Below are positions 20,992-25,546 of a stretch of 32,169 bases of DNA, in pieces (position 1 is the stretch's first letter; every line of letters begins with the position of its first letter). The notes under the pieces were generated by a model that was given only the letters and a program-made list of their open reading frames with translations, did not search any database and was not told the DNA's origin. The translations under genes were made by a program, and so were the position numbers. Origin of the DNA: Clostridium sp. (GTDB lineage: Bacteria; Bacillota; Clostridia; Lachnospirales; Lachnospiraceae); the NCBI GenBank assembly GCA_023664385.1, contig JAMPFU010000013.1, forward strand, positions 48,050 to 80,218, in the 5' to 3' direction.

Positions 20992-21027
20992 TTTGAGGTT
21001 ACAATTTGGACAATTTGCGACCTTAAA
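20992..21027. promoter_or_regulatory. CAAATTG-centred palindrome, site a (split variant)
   Basis: Half-sites TTGAGGTTACAATTTG and CAATTTGCGACCTTAA face each other, but the AATTTG centre is duplicated, so the palindrome is longer than at the other sites. It is located between the response regulator and the winged-helix gene. Confidence 0.5.
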
Positions 21028-22168: not shown

Positions 22169-22337
22169 CCAGCGTCACGGCGACTGTGTCGTCGGACATA
22201 CTACATGTTAATTTTTTATAACATTTTCACGCAACATTCGTTTACTCTATATTTTAGAGTACTCTGTATGATTTGTCAACACCTAAAAAACTTTTCTACT
22301 AATCGCATATTGCCAGAAAAAATTATTGAAACAATAA

Positions 22338-22379
22338 AAAATGCCGAAAACCTTGAAAAATCAATGTTTTCGGCATTTT
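22338..22379 (-). terminator. Terminator sharing 30 bp with the tRNA-Arg terminator
   Basis: A perfect 14-bp stem (22338-22351 with 22366-22379) and 14-nt loop, with T run on the minus strand. Positions 22344-22373 are identical to 25431-25460, the terminator following tRNA-Arg(CCU). Confidence 0.85.
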
Positions 22380-22514: not shown

Positions 22515-22838
22515 TTAATTGTCTTTTACCGCTCCGAAAAGAATTTGCACAAAGTTTCTCCGTCCATACAGAATACGGACGATATAGACAATGCCGTTTT
22601 CCAATCGGTAAAAAGCCGTATAATTTCCACATACAAGAAAACGGTAATCGCTTTCCATATCAGTGACAGAGGAGAGTGGCGCACCACTTTCAGGAAAATC
22701 AGCAAGCATACGAATTCGTTTTGTAATTTTTGCAACCATATTTATTGCCGCTTGTTCATTGCAAAGCTCCTCAATAATATATGCCTTTGCCTGCTGCAAA
22801 TCGTTAATTGCTTCCGATGAAAATTGAATGTCAGCCAT
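22515..22838 (-). CDS. RelE/ParE-family toxin
   Basis: A 107-residue type II toxin of the RelE/ParE superfamily. It begins ADIQFSSEAINDLQQAKAYI and has the conserved helical middle AAINMVAKITKRIRMLADFPESGAPL. The C-terminal strands are YRFLVCGNYTAFYRLENGIVYIVRILYGRRNF, with Arg and Tyr residues typical of the fold. The pattern FPESGAPL and RxLxYGRRNF is closer to ParE/YoeB-like groups; the target (ribosome or gyrase) cannot be told. The ATG at 22838 overlaps the antitoxin stop codon (ATGGCTGA), so the two are translationally coupled in the usual antitoxin-first order. The next upstream gene is a truncated ORF6N gene. Confidence 0.92.
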   Translation of the reverse strand: MADIQFSSEAINDLQQAKAYIIEELCNEQAAINMVAKITKRIRMLADFPESGAPLSSVTDMESDYRFLVCGNYTAFYRLENGIVYIVRILYGRRNFVQILFGAVKDN

Positions 22839-23085
22839 TGGCAATACCTAACAGTTTCTCAACATCGGCAATATCCGTCCAGCCTTTTTCCTGTGCGGAT
22901 TTCTCACCTTTAGAAAGCTCACCCATCAGCTTAATCACAGCCCTTGTTTTTTCGTATTCCTCCATATCGACAATAGCATATCTACCTCTACCGTTTTTCG
23001 TCAGGAACACAGGCTCTCCCACGGCAATGTCACGCAAGACTTCCGTATAATTTCTTAAATCCGATACTGGCTTTATATTTGGCAT
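22831..23085 (-). CDS. Phd/YefM-family antitoxin
   Basis: An 84-residue antitoxin. The N-terminal DNA-binding part (PNIKPVSDLRNYTEVLRDIAVGEPVFLTKNG) and the RYAIVDMEEYEK strand match the Phd/YefM family. The C-terminal helix (ELSKGEKSAQEKGWTDIADVEKLLG) should wrap the toxin. AAGGAG lies 8 nt before the ATG. It starts only 14 nt after the end of the truncated ORF6N gene and probably represses its own operon. Confidence 0.93.
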   Translation of the reverse strand: MPNIKPVSDLRNYTEVLRDIAVGEPVFLTKNGRGRYAIVDMEEYEKTRAVIKLMGELSKGEKSAQEKGWTDIADVEKLLGIANG

Positions 23086-23099
23086 AGCATTCGCTCCTT

Positions 23100-23561
23100 T
23101 TAACTTGCTGTAATTATTATACCCTTATTTATCGTAAAATACAACAGCTTGATTGAGGCATTCATAATATTAATGCTCACTTGTATCGCTACATCACTTC
23201 TCAAAACAGCAGAAAGCATTGCAATCCCTTGTTCTGTAAAAACAAATGGTAAATATCGTCTGCCGCCCTTTTTTATTTTACTTTCAATTGAGGTCGCAAA
23301 TTGCGACCTCAAAGATTCTGTTTCGTCTGCAGTGAGTTGAAAACAAAATTCTTTTGGGAAACGTGCTATATTTCTTTTTACAGCTTCATTAAGCCTTTTC
23401 GTTTCCACCTGATACAACATGGCTAAATCACTATCTAACATAACCTGCTGATTGCGAACAACATAAATCATATTTTTTATATCAAATTGCGTTATTTCTA
23501 TGTGTGGCTCTTGAATACCCACATCCATATTTACTAAAGTCTTCTGTTTGGTATCTGTCAT
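23100..23561 (-). CDS. Truncated ORF6N-domain protein
   Basis: A 153-residue protein that keeps the ORF6N DNA-binding domain but loses the C-terminal region of its paralogue at 24065-25030. Its first ~140 residues align clearly (VTQFDIK-MIYVVRNQQVM and RRYLPFVFTEQGIAMLSAVL), then the sequence changes to an unrelated tail (LLYFTINKGIIITAS) and stops 14 nt before the antitoxin gene. The break suggests that the toxin-antitoxin module, or a deletion, removed the 3' part. ORF6N proteins are phage or mobile-element regulators. Palindromic site b lies inside this coding sequence and encodes LRSQFATS. Confidence 0.8.
   Translation of the reverse strand: MTDTKQKTLVNMDVGIQEPHIEITQFDIKNMIYVVRNQQVMLDSDLAMLYQVETKRLNEAVKRNIARFPKEFCFQLTADETESLRSQFATSIESKIKKGGRRYLPFVFTEQGIAMLSAVLRSDVAIQVSINIMNASIKLLYFTINKGIIITAS
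23288..23313. promoter_or_regulatory. CAAATTG-centred palindrome, site b (inside ORF6N coding sequence)
   Basis: TTGAGGTCGCAA and TTGCGACCTCAA form perfect 12-bp arms around a single A at 23300. On the minus strand it encodes the conserved peptide LRSQFATS of the ORF6N protein. Confidence 0.75.
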
Positions 23562-23656
23562 ATTTATCAGCCTTCCCCCTCATTTTTTACATTATCTTAT
23601 GTCCTCGCTTTTTACTTAACAAGATTTTCAATTTTCAACAAAGCGTTTAGAAAAAT

Positions 23657-23670
23657 TGGCAGAAATGCCA
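23657..23670 (-). terminator. Small hairpin with T-rich tail
   Basis: TGGCA and TGCCA with a 4-nt loop, followed by ATTTTTC on the minus strand. It sits between the truncated ORF6N gene and the tRNA fragment. It is weak; the rest of the 500-bp gap holds a terminator copy (23698-23730), the tRNA fragment and site c. Confidence 0.35.
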
Positions 23671-23697
23671 TCTTTGATTAACATTAGATATAAAAAA

Positions 23698-23730
23698 TAC
23701 CGAAAACTCTGAAGCACAGTATTTTCGGCA
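23698..23730 (-). terminator. Diverged copy of the tRNA-Arg terminator
   Basis: CCGAAAA (23700-23706) and TTTTCGG (23722-23728) with a T run on the minus strand. It follows the partial tRNA exactly as the intact terminator follows the complete tRNA, so it was duplicated together with it and then diverged. Confidence 0.7.
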
Positions 23731-23738
23731 TCTCTTAA

Positions 23739-23782
23739 AGCGTCGCTAAGAGGATTTGAACCTCCGACCTACCGCTTAGGAG
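23739..23782 (-). repeat. 44-bp duplication of the tRNA-Arg(CCU) 3' part (attachment site remnant)
   Basis: All 44 bases are identical to 25471-25514, which cover the anticodon arm's 3' side, variable region, T arm and acceptor 3' strand of the intact tRNA gene. Beyond it the similarity stops sharply. This is what a site-specific recombinase leaves at a tRNA target. With the intact tRNA it brackets about 1.7 kb. Confidence 0.9.
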
Positions 23783-24029
23783 TAGAACCATTTGCTAGTA
23801 GGCAGCGACCTCTTAGTGTTATCTAATCCCTGTAAATCCCTACCTTTCACGAATCACGAATGTTATCTCGTACCTCCGTGTGACTGCTGATTTTAAGGTG
23901 TTTTAGATGCTCCTTTTAACAGGCGATTAGCAAGGGGATTGAATTTTGGGAAATGGTATGCTGTAAAACTTTTCCCATTTCGTACCTGCATTTCACAACT
24001 AATGTTAAAATAGTTTAAACTGTTTGCTG

Positions 24030-24056
24030 TTTAAGGTCACAAATTGTGACCTTAAA
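24030..24056. promoter_or_regulatory. CAAATTG-centred palindrome, site c (3' of the ORF6N gene)
   Basis: TTTAAGGTCACAA and TTGTGACCTTAAA form perfect 13-bp arms around A24043, just after the stop codon of the gene at 24065. It might also act as a transcriptional end, but it lacks a T run. Confidence 0.75.
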
Positions 24057-24064
24057 GAAATCTC

Positions 24065-25030
24065 CTATTCTTCGGTTTCCAGTTCCAACCGCTGCAATAT
24101 GTCCTTGATAACTCCTTCATCTTGGATAAGATTGATTCCAAAACACTTTTTCCCTGCGTCTTTCAAGGATGCTCCTACATGATAGGCTGTCGTTCGGTCA
24201 AGAATCAAAAACCTGTCATGAAATACTTTTGTATATTTTACTTCCAATGTCGGATATTGTGCATTAAAATTCTCCACATCCGTTTTAGTCAGCTTTGTCC
24301 GTTTCAAGGTATATACCGTGACCGCCACATTTTCTTTTTTCTTGGAAAGAAGATTTAATGTCCCAACATCAACATATCCGTCTATTAGAGTAATCTCTTT
24401 GTCTGCTTTCTGGATAAGGCTGACAATCAGACTGAACGCATCATATATCTGCCCGTCAAAAAATACCTTTTGACTGGATTCCTCATGTTCGGATATGTAC
24501 TCAAAAACTCTCTCGAAACGCTCATCTGTTTCGGTTTGATAATTTATCTGACGGATTTCCATCGCATTTAAACGCTCATATAACAAAGATGTATTTGCCA
24601 TATACTTCCGCATTTCCACAAAAGTATCCATAATCCTGATACTTACTCGGATAGCGACATCACTTCGCAAAACAGCAGAAAGCATCGCTATCCCTTGTTC
24701 CGTAAACACGAATGGTAATTTTCTACGCCCGCCATATCCATTATCATCTTCCAAACTTGAAATCACAAATTGTGATTTCAAGTTTTCATATTCTTCTTTC
24801 GTAAGTTGAAAACGGAATTTTTCTGGAAATCTTGAAATATTACGCTTCGCTGCTTGGTTTAATGCTCTCGTTTCAACTTGATACAGCATTGCTAAATCGC
24901 TATCTATCATAACCTGTTGATTACGAACAACATAAATCATGCTTTTTATATCAAATTGAGTTACTTCGGTATGTGGCTCTTGAATATCTGTATTAACTTT
25001 TGTTAAGGCTTTCTGCTCGGTATCAGCCAT
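24065..25030 (-). CDS. ORF6N-domain protein with C-terminal phospholipase D-like domain
   Basis: A 321-residue protein. Residues ~24-115 form an ORF6N DNA-binding domain (IYVVRNQQVMIDSDLAMLY, ... FVFTEQGIAMLSAVLRS), common in phages and mobile elements. A coiled region follows, and residues ~185-315 contain a phospholipase D-like half-motif: His271 and Asp278 in HDRFLILDR, then GASLKDAG at 286-293. PLD-like domains of this type occur in nucleases, but activity is untested. AAAGGA precedes the ATG by 8 nt. Palindromes e and f lie directly upstream, d inside and c just after, so it may bind its own sites. It lies between the tRNA and its duplicated 3' part. Confidence 0.86.
   Translation of the reverse strand: MADTEQKALTKVNTDIQEPHTEVTQFDIKSMIYVVRNQQVMIDSDLAMLYQVETRALNQAAKRNISRFPEKFRFQLTKEEYENLKSQFVISSLEDDNGYGGRRKLPFVFTEQGIAMLSAVLRSDVAIRVSIRIMDTFVEMRKYMANTSLLYERLNAMEIRQINYQTETDERFERVFEYISEHEESSQKVFFDGQIYDAFSLIVSLIQKADKEITLIDGYVDVGTLNLLSKKKENVAVTVYTLKRTKLTKTDVENFNAQYPTLEVKYTKVFHDRFLILDRTTAYHVGASLKDAGKKCFGINLIQDEGVIKDILQRLELETEE
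24753..24785. promoter_or_regulatory. CAAATTG-centred palindrome, site d (inside ORF6N coding sequence)
   Basis: AAACTTGAAATCACAA and TTGTGATTTCAAGTTT form perfect 16-bp arms around A24769, the longest in the window. On the minus strand it encodes NLKSQFVIS, the position equal to site b in the paralogue. Confidence 0.75.
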
Positions 25031-25048
25031 ATCTACCGTCCTTTCTAT

Positions 25049-25077
25049 TTTTGAGGTGCCAATTTGTTACCTCAAAA
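25049..25077. promoter_or_regulatory. CAAATTG-centred palindrome, site e (ORF6N promoter region)
   Basis: Fourteen-base arms TTTTGAGGTGCCAA and TTGTTACCTCAAAA around T25063 with two mismatches. It ends just upstream of the ribosome binding site of the ORF6N gene, well placed for repression. Confidence 0.6.
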
Positions 25078-25087
25078 TCATCCGAAA

Positions 25088-25114
25088 CTTGAAGTCGCAA
25101 ATTGTGACTTCAAG
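25088..25114. promoter_or_regulatory. CAAATTG-centred palindrome, site f (ORF6N promoter region)
   Basis: CTTGAAGTCGCAA and TTGTGACTTCAAG around A25101 with one wobble mismatch. Its centre lies 38 bp from that of site e, close to four helical turns, so two bound dimers could interact. Confidence 0.65.
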
Positions 25115-25308
25115 ATTTTGCACTTCGTATATTTTTAAACTTGAATTTCCAAATCGGAATACAGAGTTTTATGTACGCTCATTGTTTGCCTTTATAATAT
25201 ATCATACATTTTCCTACGAAAATAGCCATAATCTTACTTTATACATAGACCATATTTATAGAAAAAGAGAACAAAAAAACTCTTTAAACAGGTAAATTCG
25301 CCTTTTTG

Positions 25309-25387
25309 ATTAGCAGGATTTTTAGCACGATTTTTGCTTCGATTAGCAGAAAACCATTTCTATTAGCAAAAACCGCTTCTGCTAATC
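25309..25387. repeat. Cluster of GATTAGCAG-type short repeats
   Basis: Five copies of (G/T)(A/T)TTAGCA(G/A/C) occur: 25309, 25321, 25341 and 25361 in direct orientation and one inverted at 25377-25387; another lies at 23925-23934 near the opposite end of the 1.7-kb segment. Spacings are near 10 or 20 bp. They could be arm-type recombinase sites of the element integrated at tRNA-Arg. Confidence 0.5.
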
Positions 25388-25427
25388 ACACATTGTTACG
25401 AGTTCAATTTCTCTTGGAAAATGAAAA

Positions 25428-25462
25428 ACACCGAAAACCTTGAAAAATCAATGTTTTCGGCG
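25428..25462 (-). terminator. tRNA-Arg terminator
   Basis: CCGAAAAC (25431-25438) and GTTTTCGG (25453-25460) with T run on the minus strand, 10 nt after the tRNA 3' end. Thirty bases are identical to the terminator at 22344-22373. Confidence 0.85.
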
Positions 25463-25472
25463 ATGTTTTTAG

Positions 25473-25546
25473 CGTCGCTAAGAGGATTTGAACCTCCGAC
25501 CTACCGCTTAGGAGGCGGTCGCTCTATCCAGCTGAGCTATAGCGAC
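25473..25546 (-). tRNA. tRNA-Arg (anticodon CCU)
   Basis: A 74-nt cloverleaf on the minus strand. The acceptor stem is GTCGCTA with TAGCGAC, the D arm contains AGCTCAGCTGGATAGAGC, and the anticodon stem ACCGC/GCGGT encloses CTCCTAA, giving anticodon CCT. The T arm is CGGAGGTTCAAATCCTC-type. The CCA end is not encoded. The gene is complete; its 3' 44 bases are duplicated at 23739-23782, marking it as an integration target. Confidence 0.97.

Follow-up and report, generated by a model that had tools for sequence, protein, structure and literature searches.

Palindromic DNA at a fixed codon of ORF6N genes, with counterparts in KilA-N and Bro-N genes, as a candidate site for the encoded proteins

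Why should two genes for ORF6N-domain proteins carry a palindrome at the same codons, and why should further copies lie before and after one of them? The question is raised by a 32,169-nt stretch of a Clostridium sp. genome (the window; assembly GCA_023664385.1, contig JAMPFU010000013.1, positions 48,050 to 80,218), in which the initial annotation described six sites with a CAAATTG-like centre and supposed either that the protein binds its own gene or that the palindrome is a mobile or recombination signal hidden in a coding region. The genes of the locus are as follows.

23100..23561, minus strand: short ORF6N gene, 153 aa, without the C-terminal part
24065..25030, minus strand: full-length gene, ORF6N domain (residues 31-120) and C-terminal part
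25472..25546, minus strand: tRNA-Arg(CCT), its 3' half and terminator repeated at 23692-23782

The two products match PF10543 (ORF6N) with 122.6 and 115.6 bits (curated cut-off, 27.8 bits). The C-terminal part of the full-length protein contains the invariant residues HxR...GxSxKD and, going by this motif alone, is presumably PLD-like; a PDB sequence search returned no match. The full-length gene also matches the model of the PADLOC candidate PDC-S05 over nearly its whole length (profile positions 8-302 of 306, E 1.8e-127); the short gene, which covers only positions 8-130 of 306, is probably a truncated copy. The name PDC-S05 occurs in the methods text of PMC12988326, and the model is a description of a protein, unlike the DNA palindrome of interest here. 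Because the 3' half of the tRNA gene recurs with its terminator, the full-length gene sits between two copies of it. The palindromic sites, scored as arms around a 1-nt centre, are listed without strand.

20992..21027: relic of two half-sites around GA (13/17 paired), the nearest ORF6N gene being about 2.1 kb away
23288..23312: palindrome inside the short ORF6N gene, 12/12 pairs; the minus strand codes LRSQFATS
24030..24056: palindrome 3' of the full-length gene, 13/13 pairs, centred 21 nt beyond the stop
24753..24785: palindrome inside the full-length gene, 16/16 pairs; the minus strand codes (N)LKSQFVISS
25049..25077: imperfect upstream palindrome between the 25088 site and the start, 12/14 pairs, centred 33 nt ahead of the start
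25088..25114: upstream palindrome, 12/13 pairs, centred 71 nt ahead of the start codon

Of the six sites, four thus prove near-perfect, as annotated, but they are not six equivalents: the 25049 site is imperfect, and 20992-21027 is no CAAATTG-centred palindrome: two half-sites of 17 nt (TTTGAGGTTACAATTTG and CAATTTGCGACCTTAAA) flank GA, which gives it a relic-like appearance. The remainder of the described arrangement was borne out, with in-gene sites at the same codons of both ORF6N genes (LRSQF and LKSQF), two sites on the 5' side of the full-length gene and a single one on its 3' side. A palindrome scan of the window gave seven matches scoring at least 10, the four good sites included, and five Markov-shuffled windows gave one such match in total; chance origin is ruled out by these shuffled windows, by codon resampling and by comparison with the column average (both below). 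The genome search that had been proposed was run on the 3.17-Mb genome of the same organism: RRTCNCAAATTGNGAYY has four matches, all four at the ORF6N locus (reversed control, 0), and a looser pattern adds one weakly symmetric match 68.6 kb away on the same contig. With up to three mismatches to GGTCGCAAATTGCGACC, two of five places lie outside the locus (control, 1), one of them being a near-palindrome, GGTCGCAAGTTGCGACA, on contig C17. In-frame copies in unrelated genes, as known from Rickettsia, were not found among the strict matches in this genome. A literature source of TCACAAATTGTGA turned out to be an unrelated CRISPR-repeat listing.

Relatives of the ORF6N genes were fetched with a query from which the SQF peptide was absent, and the site homologous to 24753..24785 was found to be paired in them too. 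When the site was set by protein alignment, the unbiased version of the comparison, 9.68 of 11 positions were paired at the homologous codon in 62 ORF6N genes, including six rows scoring below 8 (four of them frame-1 genes), compared with an all-column mean of 2.85 (sd 0.70) and 4.70 in the best other column. The palindrome lies just before the conserved FTEQG segment, reads about ACTTGARRTNNCAAWTTGNNAYYTCAAGT, and extends over bacterial phyla, virus-type contigs and one archaeal assembly; a phylum-wide search contributed only a handful of genes (4 of 249 genomes, counting the organism's own). In a set of 92 non-redundant genes (108 before de-duplication, 96 after it, 92 after a length filter), the best palindrome reached at least 10/11 in 69. 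The symmetry at the SQF codons is far better than in codon-shuffled controls: upon synonymous-codon resampling, 84 of the 92 genes were significant at p<0.05, and for 57 of the 92 none of 300 resamplings scored as high.

Changes in the two arms are coupled. Among 77 of the 92 in-gene sites (best palindromes, after removal of six loci, identical sites and one site with a low score), 200 double-change cells were counted against 50.6 after shuffling and at most 35 in slid controls, and 11 pairs had changed on both sides, a number reached by 62 of 500 shuffles; the relatedness of the genes inflates these counts. The choice of synonymous serine codon likewise predicts the residue at +3, with TCA-Val in 30 genes, TCG-Ala in 15, TCA-Ala in 2, TCA-Met in 1 and TCG-Val in 0, so that 45 of 48 are TCA-Val or TCG-Ala (Fisher's test on Val/Ala, 1.8e-10), and F, C or Y is paired with Gly in 20 of 23. 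Of 143 non-redundant genes 126 were classified, 115 of them scoring at least 9; the palindrome is read in another frame in 10 of these 115 ORF6N genes (ELVTNCDRF and the like), and also in locus L593 (VEVANCDLN). Parsimony gave eight frame switches, a count that is not trusted, the tree being weak and the "frame 2" of L142 a broken frame; a separate count on the tree is biased by its restriction to sites scoring at least 9/11. Conservation of the peptide alone is ruled out by the resampling, the column comparison, the serine-codon coupling and the frame-1 genes. The symmetry of the DNA overrides the peptide, and is kept, through changes in both arms, in more than one reading frame. The claim that symmetry persists despite differing arms is therefore strongly supported, by codon resampling, covariation, the fixed column, codon-residue coupling and the pairing of free letters.

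The same kind of thing is found in KilA-N and Bro-N genes, beyond the six sites originally observed. KilA-N genes contain a different palindrome, with the centre GAATTC and the core TCGAATTCGA, at a fixed codon: 9.37 of 11 positions are paired (n=38; 38 of 40 non-redundant genes have a residue there) in a column picked as the best of 274, with a mean of 2.92 (sd 0.84) and 5.57 in the next column. Here it is a proline codon that is coupled to a later residue (CCC with Gly in 8/8, CCT with Arg in 3/4), and the two halves may be reverse complements codon by codon, as in CTG GTC GAA TTC GAC CAG and TAT GGC GAA TTC GCC ATA. KilA-N, with no gene at 10/11 or better in an odd-centre scan (0/13; ORF6N 28/48, Bro-N 4/24, Rha 1/14), could not serve as a negative control family, since its palindrome at the fixed codon is even-centred. 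Among Bro-N genes, 30 of 59 have at least 8/9 pairs compared with 4.6 (maximum 8) in synonymous simulations, and 29 of the 30 centres lie at -50 to -30 compared with a fraction of 0.54 of simulated ones; their palindromes are quite different in sequence, and no fixed column was found (best 5.28/11, n=53). For Rha the best column reached 5.08/11 (n=12). Hairpins of 9/9 were observed in 16 of 22 ORF6N loci (synonymous mean 0.4; 22 of 28 loci used), 3 of 24 Bro-N (0.3; 24 of 30), 1 of 14 Rha (0.1; 14 of 17) and 7 of 11 KilA-N (0.1; 11 of 14). A preference of baculovirus BRO proteins for single-stranded DNA was not confirmed in the literature consulted and has no weight in the present argument.

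Sites are also present near other ORF6N genes, as seen both in a flanking scan and in a pattern search of 22 genomes. In the former, flanking CAAWTTG sites were found for 18 of the 92 genes (and for three of four genes added by hand with prior knowledge); downstream centres lie 15-21 nt after the stop, with one second site at 72. These copies cluster at gene starts and stops: within 150 nt there are five core palindromes in 13.1 kb upstream and six in 12.5 kb downstream, and far off there is one in 206 kb (more than 2 kb upstream) and none in 225 kb (more than 1 kb downstream). Sites at both the gene's own promoter and the gene itself, as in a set of operators, thus occur in the window, with flanking copies in the 18 genes and an in-gene site in most. 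The same scan found no flanking site in 74 of the 92 genes, and none was seen at KilA-N loci outside neighbouring KilA-N gene pieces; together with the lack of a fixed column in Bro-N, these observations count against an operator.

Within one locus, sites share the same letter at positions 4, 5 and 8 about as often as sites of different loci do (0.39/0.62/0.47 vs 0.38/0.61/0.40), each site being symmetric on its own (0.82/0.86/0.88), a symmetry that an ordinary operator does not need. Positions 6 and 9 are shared among the sites of one locus and constitute the free evidence for a core, positions 1-3 being fixed in flanking sites by the demands of the search pattern. Arm similarity between in-gene and flanking sites was 7.39 vs 6.87 when permuted (3 of 2000 as high), with relatedness still in and the hand-added genes included.

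In the 22 genomes, 40 of 42 places matching the strict pattern fall inside an ORF6N domain or no more than 671 nt from one, although 22 of the 40 had served to select the genomes. When a palindrome alone was used as a BLAST query, it matched 13 plasmid records, all but H5 of which were examined: seven carry it inside an annotated ORF6N gene or next to one, and five have no ORF6N gene in 5 kb. In viral contigs the core palindrome occurs in 76 stretches vs 1 and 1 for two scrambled-centre controls, and in seven of 38 clusters the stretch includes an ORF6N gene; two more viral scans yielded, for the most part, contigs already in the set. One genome, G109, has 21 dispersed palindrome places by count (20 listed), with such a palindrome in three of its four Bro-N genes and, in three of eight neighbourhoods examined, an in-frame copy in a phosphate-acetyltransferase-like or other, unrelated-looking ORF. 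The occurrence of the core without ORF6N in many viral contigs and in G109 also counts against an operator.

Given that the strict pattern hardly occurs outside ORF6N loci, self-binding is the most economical reading: the ORF6N palindrome may act in cis, as a DNA site to which the encoded protein probably binds in order to control its own gene, a proposal made from sequence with slightly less than even confidence. The palindrome is built into the ORF6N coding sequence and, in some genes, repeated on the promoter side and directly past the stop. Each family of proteins would recognize the putative site in its own gene, with a core of its own, and the in-gene site would act as an internal operator, in some genes together with flanking ones, by means of which the regulator would govern its own expression. 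Positions 4, 5 and 8 would remain complementary because the DNA is read in folded form (hairpin or cruciform), because template-switch repair copies one arm to the other, or both.

It is unlikely, if a serious contender, that the fold of the DNA (a strand hairpin or cruciform) and not its base sequence is the working form, recognized by these proteins or, where there is one, by the nuclease-like C-terminal part, for regulation, recombination or replication. Such a form would account for pairing at the free-letter positions, for the excess symmetry in one region of Bro-N genes despite their quite different sequences, and for the codon-by-codon reverse complements kept in KilA-N, and the positive result for KilA-N at a fixed codon moved the balance slightly towards folding, away from mobility and neutral upkeep. 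However, the centres hardly vary inside the ORF6N and KilA-N families, and in a folded strand G-T should be tolerated somewhat better than A-C, whereas the mismatches in coding sites of 86 of the 92 ORF6N genes are GT+TG 12, AC+CA 23 and other 30, and in Bro-N G-T 1 vs A-C 11.

Mobility, the other suggestion of the initial annotation, is partly supported by the dispersed copies in G109, the over-representation in viral contigs and the four loci, L105 and its near relative L106, L114 and L131, in which two palindromes with different arms lie inside one ORF6N frame. The presence of the palindrome in other frames (the 10 of 115 genes and L593) also agrees with a Rickettsia-like mobile element that inserts into loops of these genes, as well as into the surrounding gaps, and is then fixed, the peptide being tolerated. 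We nevertheless think this rather unlikely: its position does not vary across phyla in ORF6N or across genera in KilA-N, the palindrome differs with the family, copies elsewhere are rare in most carrier genomes (2 of 42 places), no target duplication or empty site was seen, and the peptide coded by the palindrome in the G109 phosphate acetyltransferase is probably no extra insert relative to homologues.

Template switching is reported to homogenize the arms of inverted repeats and to flip spacers within coding sequence (PMC8604942) and to maintain hairpins through seemingly compensatory changes (PMC8794818), and the ORF6N centre base does flip (A 50, T 36; n=86). That these are old quasi-palindromes without function, their symmetry upheld solely by such switching in replication, is nonetheless improbable, as it would leave unexplained why each family has a fixed core of its own, why the codon is fixed in two families and why copies flank the gene at start and stop.

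Finally, control of translation or termination by an mRNA or antisense RNA hairpin is disfavoured as very improbable: every site does lie in or beside the transcript, and 23288 and 24753 have terminator-like scores inside genes, though on the strand opposite to them, but G-U pairs on the mRNA strand are not in excess in ORF6N coding sites or Bro-N (counts above), and Rfam gives no match over the gathering score in the window except the tRNA. A known RNA family is thereby ruled out, a rivX match that overlaps 23288 being at chance level (E 0.62); so are intrinsic terminators (a G+C-rich stem followed by a T-run) at the window sites, which were flagged on the opposite strand only, with none on the gene strand and 24030 unflagged. 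Promoter-like matches were not in excess over shuffles (9 vs 9.9), which speaks against an operator.

A self-bound site within the gene would have precedents in operators that lie inside genes and act with upstream operators, such as lac O2 in lacZ and the internal operator of gal in galE. The ORF6N palindrome resembles these in lying inside coding sequence, with promoter sites in some genes, and differs in that it stands in the code for the regulator's own domain, at the same codon in many phyla, and in that some of its letters are free and the peptide follows the DNA. The palindromic elements of Rickettsia and Wolbachia, found in protein-coding genes for assorted housekeeping functions (as cited in PMC2996958), are also in-frame palindromic DNA and, as here in at least one genome (G109), dispersed; unlike them, the present sites of about 25-33 nt belong to given families and have a fixed place in most members examined. 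PARCEL, the palindromic amphipathic repeat coding elements, are described in the same source as tandem 25-aa repeats of imperfect symmetry, sharing with ORF6N palindromes the dyad symmetry of coding DNA, variable sequence and wide horizontal spread; ORF6N, KilA and antirepressor have no occurrence in its main text. Nematomorpha mitochondrial genes contain perfect inverted repeats of up to 284 bp, by the account in PMC6649704, in coding genes as here but, unlike here, mitochondrial and not bound to one protein family.

A broader proposal, which goes further beyond the sequences and which we regard as doubtful, is that several families of phage-type regulator genes (ORF6N, KilA-N and probably Bro-N) are self-referential: the code for the N-terminal domain, of nucleic-acid-binding type, would contain a structured DNA site, with a family-specific core, that the gene's own protein recognizes, the fold of the DNA would dictate amino acids, site and protein would co-evolve, and the site, copied around the gene and now and then across a genome, would make the gene a self-marking, possibly mobile regulatory unit. 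Coding sequence is usually read as constrained by the protein; here the symmetry of the DNA sets which amino acids occur, and the synonymous codon used for serine or proline foretells a residue several positions on. Phages and mobile islands commonly encode ORF6N, KilA-N and Bro-N proteins, which carry annotations as antirepressors or candidate defence genes, and the palindromes offer them a concrete candidate DNA site, as well as a natural system for asking whether selection or template switching lies behind palindrome symmetry.

The two ORF6N genes of the window, both of a phage-type regulator family, lie on the reverse strand with palindromes inside and around them:

20992-21027, two half-sites around GA
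23100-23561, reverse strand, short ORF6N gene (153 aa, without the C-terminal part)
23288-23312, palindrome, 12/12 pairs
23692-23782, repeat of the tRNA-Arg(CCT) 3' half with terminator
24030-24056, palindrome, 13/13 pairs
24065-25030, reverse strand, full-length ORF6N gene (matches PADLOC PDC-S05 along almost all of its length)
24753-24785, palindrome, 16/16 pairs
25049-25077, imperfect palindrome, 12/14 pairs
25088-25114, palindrome, 12/13 pairs
25472-25546, tRNA-Arg(CCT)

The initial annotation had counted six CAAATTG-like palindromes; five are present, and the element at 20992-21027 looks like the relic of a site. A palindrome scan of the window returned seven matches with a score of at least 10, the four good sites included, compared with one such match in five Markov-shuffled windows together. 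In a genome-wide search, a strict form of the pattern proved to be restricted to the window's ORF6N locus, where all four of its matches in the 3.17-Mb genome fall (control, none); with three mismatches allowed, two of five places lay outside the locus (control, one). Residues H271, R273, F274, G286, S288, K290 and D291 of the C-terminal part are invariant in an alignment of 62 sequences, and this putative active-site region of the full-length protein resembles the PLD type. The full-length gene is flanked by tRNA-Arg(CCT) and by the repeat of its 3' half with terminator, and tRNA pieces or tRNA-Arg adjoin the ORF6N gene in several close relatives too. This tRNA-Arg(CCT) island (23692-25514 in the window) was also seen at the fetched loci L063, L064, L066 and L068, L064 holding the tRNA 3' half and terminator in triplicate, as if small cassettes accreted there. 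Genes for a ParE-like toxin and a Phd/YefM-like antitoxin, the latter under the Pfam cut-off, adjoin the short ORF6N gene at 22515-23085, and a 42-nt terminator-like hairpin (TGCCGAAAAC...GTTTTCGGC) occurs in three copies (22333-22374, 23689-23730 and 25420-25461).

The query used to retrieve loci of relatives began past the SQF peptide, so that the palindrome site itself was not selected for. Of 562 relatives in genomes the best 80 loci were taken, together with 26 viral loci; a set of 108 genes was reduced to 92 by removal of 12 near-duplicates and of 4 by length. Scored as base pairs between arms over 11 positions, the best palindrome before the conserved FTEQG segment had at least 10 pairs in 69 of the 92 genes and at least 9 in 87, synonymous-codon resampling giving per-gene means of 6.2-7.8. 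The claim that the sites keep their symmetry was borne out against codon-shuffled controls, with 84 of the 92 genes exceeding resampling at p<0.05 and 57 lying above all 300 resamplings. With the site set by protein alignment alone (the Gln 87 column), 62 genes averaged 9.68/11 pairs, against a codon-column background of 2.85 (sd 0.70); no other column exceeded 4.70. Six of these genes scored below 8, and in four (L077, L090, L117, L134) the palindrome is shifted by one base into another reading frame and encodes ELVTNCDRF or a similar peptide, not LRSQIVTS. In 'SKN'-type genes (L018, L032, L034, L166) the centre is lost and the outer arms are still mirrored. Among 126 classified non-redundant ORF6N genes, 93 scored 10/11 or more and 115 scored 9 or more, shuffled regions scoring 6.75. 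Palindromes of at least 10/11 were found in records titled as Bacillota, Bacteroidota, the Verrucomicrobiota/Lentisphaerota type, Planctomycetota, Campylobacterota, a spirochaete, Adlercreutzia (Actinomycetota), and a deltaproteobacterial and a Woesearchaeota assembly; since many records are metagenome-assembled, single taxon assignments may be wrong.

The two arms covary. Both sides were changed in 200 cells (77 sites), compared with 50.6 after shuffling, and slid controls never exceeded 35; a double change of any kind occurred in 11 pairs, not an unusual number, since 62 of 500 shuffles reached it. On a tree made without the site region, pairs 2-12 had undergone 180 double and 40 one-sided changes, a count confined to sites scoring at least 9, which favours pairing; with partners shifted by one, it gave 104 and 78 double versus 249 and 248 one-sided changes. 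The sharpest test was provided by synonymous codons, at 72 motif sites from 143 non-redundant genes, kinship being ignored: with serine TCA, residue +3 was Val in 30, Ala in 2 and Met in 1, and with TCG it was Ala in 15 and Val in none (Fisher 1.8e-10 for TCA/TCG versus Val/Ala), while Phe, Cys or Tyr was followed by Gly in 20 of 23. Complementarity ties a silent base to a later residue, which peptide constraint does not.

The copies reported before and after the full-length gene have counterparts near other ORF6N genes, 18 of the 92 having, no more than 500 nt away, another site centred on CAAWTTG (at least 8/11); with four hand-added genes, three of which have one, the figure is 21 of 96 (18 upstream, 7 downstream). 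The centres of the upstream sites precede the estimated start by 1 to 181 nt, and those of the downstream sites follow the stop by 15-21 nt, apart from one further site at 72. Across 90 loci, near-perfect core palindromes within 150 nt numbered 5 in 13.1 kb upstream and 6 in 12.5 kb downstream; the 82 kb lying 1-2 kb upstream held 3, the 206 kb beyond held 1, and the 225 kb more than 1 kb downstream held none. One relative (L019) repeats the window's layout, with TTGAAATGCCAATTTGGCATTTCAA ahead of the start, CCAAGGTCACAAATTGTGACCTTG in the gene and CCAAGGTCACAATTTGTGACCTTGG past the stop. In 22 genomes reached via such loci, RRTCRCAAWTTGYGAYY occurred at 42 places, 40 of them in or at most 671 nt from an ORF6N domain (22 of these 40 being the sites by which the genomes were picked); the two others were at G441 C24:39731 and G460 C37:7889 (genome, contig and position).

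A BLAST search with one palindrome alone matched 13 plasmid records, seven of them in an annotated ORF6N gene (Sulfuricurvum twice, Bacteroides ovatus, Treponema) or directly beside one (Legionella oakridgensis, Bacteroides finegoldii, Segatella hominis); five had no ORF6N gene within the 5 kb inspected, 12 of the 13 records having been looked at. Solitary 11/11 palindromes in 5-kb stretches without an ORF6N gene were seen on plasmids of Sulfurospirillum (L290), Legionella adelaidensis (L301) and Alistipes (L294). Eleven phage records matched: three with the palindrome inside an ORF fitting a local ORF6N profile, one for which this was not so, and seven of P1, P7 or SJ46 in which the match carried no annotated feature (the sequence of one was inspected). 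In E. coli, one of 5426 genomes had a partial match.

Palindromes also occur in two other phage-type regulator families, Bro-N and KilA-N. Two genes of the Bro-N family, initially taken as a control, have CAAWTTG palindromes before INESGLYSLI or its counterpart (L452, CAGTTGGTGACAAATTGTCACCAACTG, peptide QLVTNCHQL; L437, CTGCGTTCCCAAATTGGGTACGCAG, peptide LRSQIG). Hairpins of at least 8/9 pairs occurred in 30 of 59 non-redundant viral Bro-N genes, where synonymous simulations gave 4.6 (maximum 8). All but one of these 30 hairpins (29) were centred 30-50 nt ahead of INESG, against a fraction of 0.54 of simulated ones; their sequences are varied (L424-L453, L480-L559), and no single column of the alignment is prominent (best 5.28/11, n=53). 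In KilA-N (L596-L649), a scan for odd centres found none in 13, and an even-centred palindrome (core TCGAATTCGA) lies at one codon boundary: 38 genes average 9.37/11 pairs there, 31 of them scoring at least 9, while the mean of 274 columns is 2.92 (sd 0.84) and the next column has 5.57. Whole codons are mirrored (AAA CCC GTC GAA / TTC GAC GGG TTT; AAA CCT ATC GAA / TTC GAT AGG TTT; AAA CTG GTC GAA / TTC GAC CAG TTT; AAT TAT GGC GAA / TTC GCC ATA ATT), and the mirrored residue can be predicted from the synonymous Pro codon used, CCC going with Gly in 8 of 8 and CCT with Arg in 3 of 4. A KilA-N gene of this kind, with one TGA inside, is present in the window's own genome (L605, G000:C4:4340-4705); in 15 loci, no KilA-N sites were seen beyond KilA-N gene pieces. 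Six of 14 Rha genes reached 8/9, compared with 2.3 (maximum 5), the best column scoring 5.08 (n=12). From the conserved segment downstream of each, the palindromic stretches of these families may be equivalent.

Dispersed copies were also encountered. A genome of the same order as the window's (G109; loci L454-L479, L560-L567) has no ORF6N match and four Bro-N matches, three with the palindrome. It holds 21 pattern places, and the 20 listed are all GGTCGCAAATTGCGACC with mirrored arms; eight neighbourhoods were examined, and in three of them a long ORF contains the copy in frame, these unrelated-looking ORFs being, by sight, phosphate-acetyltransferase-like, phosphotransferase-like and germination-protein-like. 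In viral contigs, RAGGTCRCAAWTTGYGACCTY was found in 76 stretches (38 flank clusters), compared with one each for two scrambled-centre patterns; an ORF6N gene is present within the stretch in only seven of these clusters, and in several others the copy is intergenic and followed by T-runs, so that the core is also used outside the ORF6N family. Viral contigs (L169-L287, L568-L593) are strongly enriched in GGTCRCAAWTTGYGACC, often intergenic and with a T-run after some copies, and in-frame viral copies encoding SKVTICDLKTT were seen in a phage exonuclease-looking ORF (L172, L229, L232).

In the accessible text of the open-licence literature, no description of an in-gene palindrome of ORF6N, KilA-N or Bro-N was found, and the single paper there pairing ORF6N with 'palindrom' uses the word for CRISPR. 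Coding palindromes as such are already described (PMC2996958, PMC6649704), so that, as far as these sources extend, the ORF6N/KilA-N case is a variant of a known phenomenon, itself new.

Judged from sequence patterns, the most likely reading makes the palindrome a candidate cis-acting DNA site for the very protein that its gene encodes. In favour are its restriction to the loci and a family-specific core at a fixed codon; the pairing of free letters and the absence of flanking sites from many genes counsel caution. In 21 multi-site loci, positions 6 and 9 hardly vary (1-3 being fixed by the search pattern). At positions 4, 5 and 8, 0.82-0.88 of sites show symmetry, the letter agreeing with the sister site no oftener than with sites of other loci, which points to a core of fixed letters with arms whose pairing is kept. 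A dimer-bound operator would explain the core, and the pairing of free letters calls for folding or arm-to-arm copying. Template switching is documented to homogenise inverted-repeat arms and to invert spacers (PMC8604942, PMC8794818); the centre base flips between A (50) and T (36). A plain sequence constraint is argued against by positions 4, 5 and 8, whose letters are free though symmetric. An mRNA stem is disfavoured since mismatches in coding sites (GT or TG 12, AC or CA 23, other 30) show no preference for G-U pairs; A-rich third codon positions may account for the AC excess. The initial annotation had suggested a protein binding its own gene or a mobile or recombination signal, and a folded DNA form, mobility and upkeep by template switching are each compatible with a site for the encoded protein. 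Through this internal site, and in some genes the flanking sites as well, the encoded protein would control its own gene.
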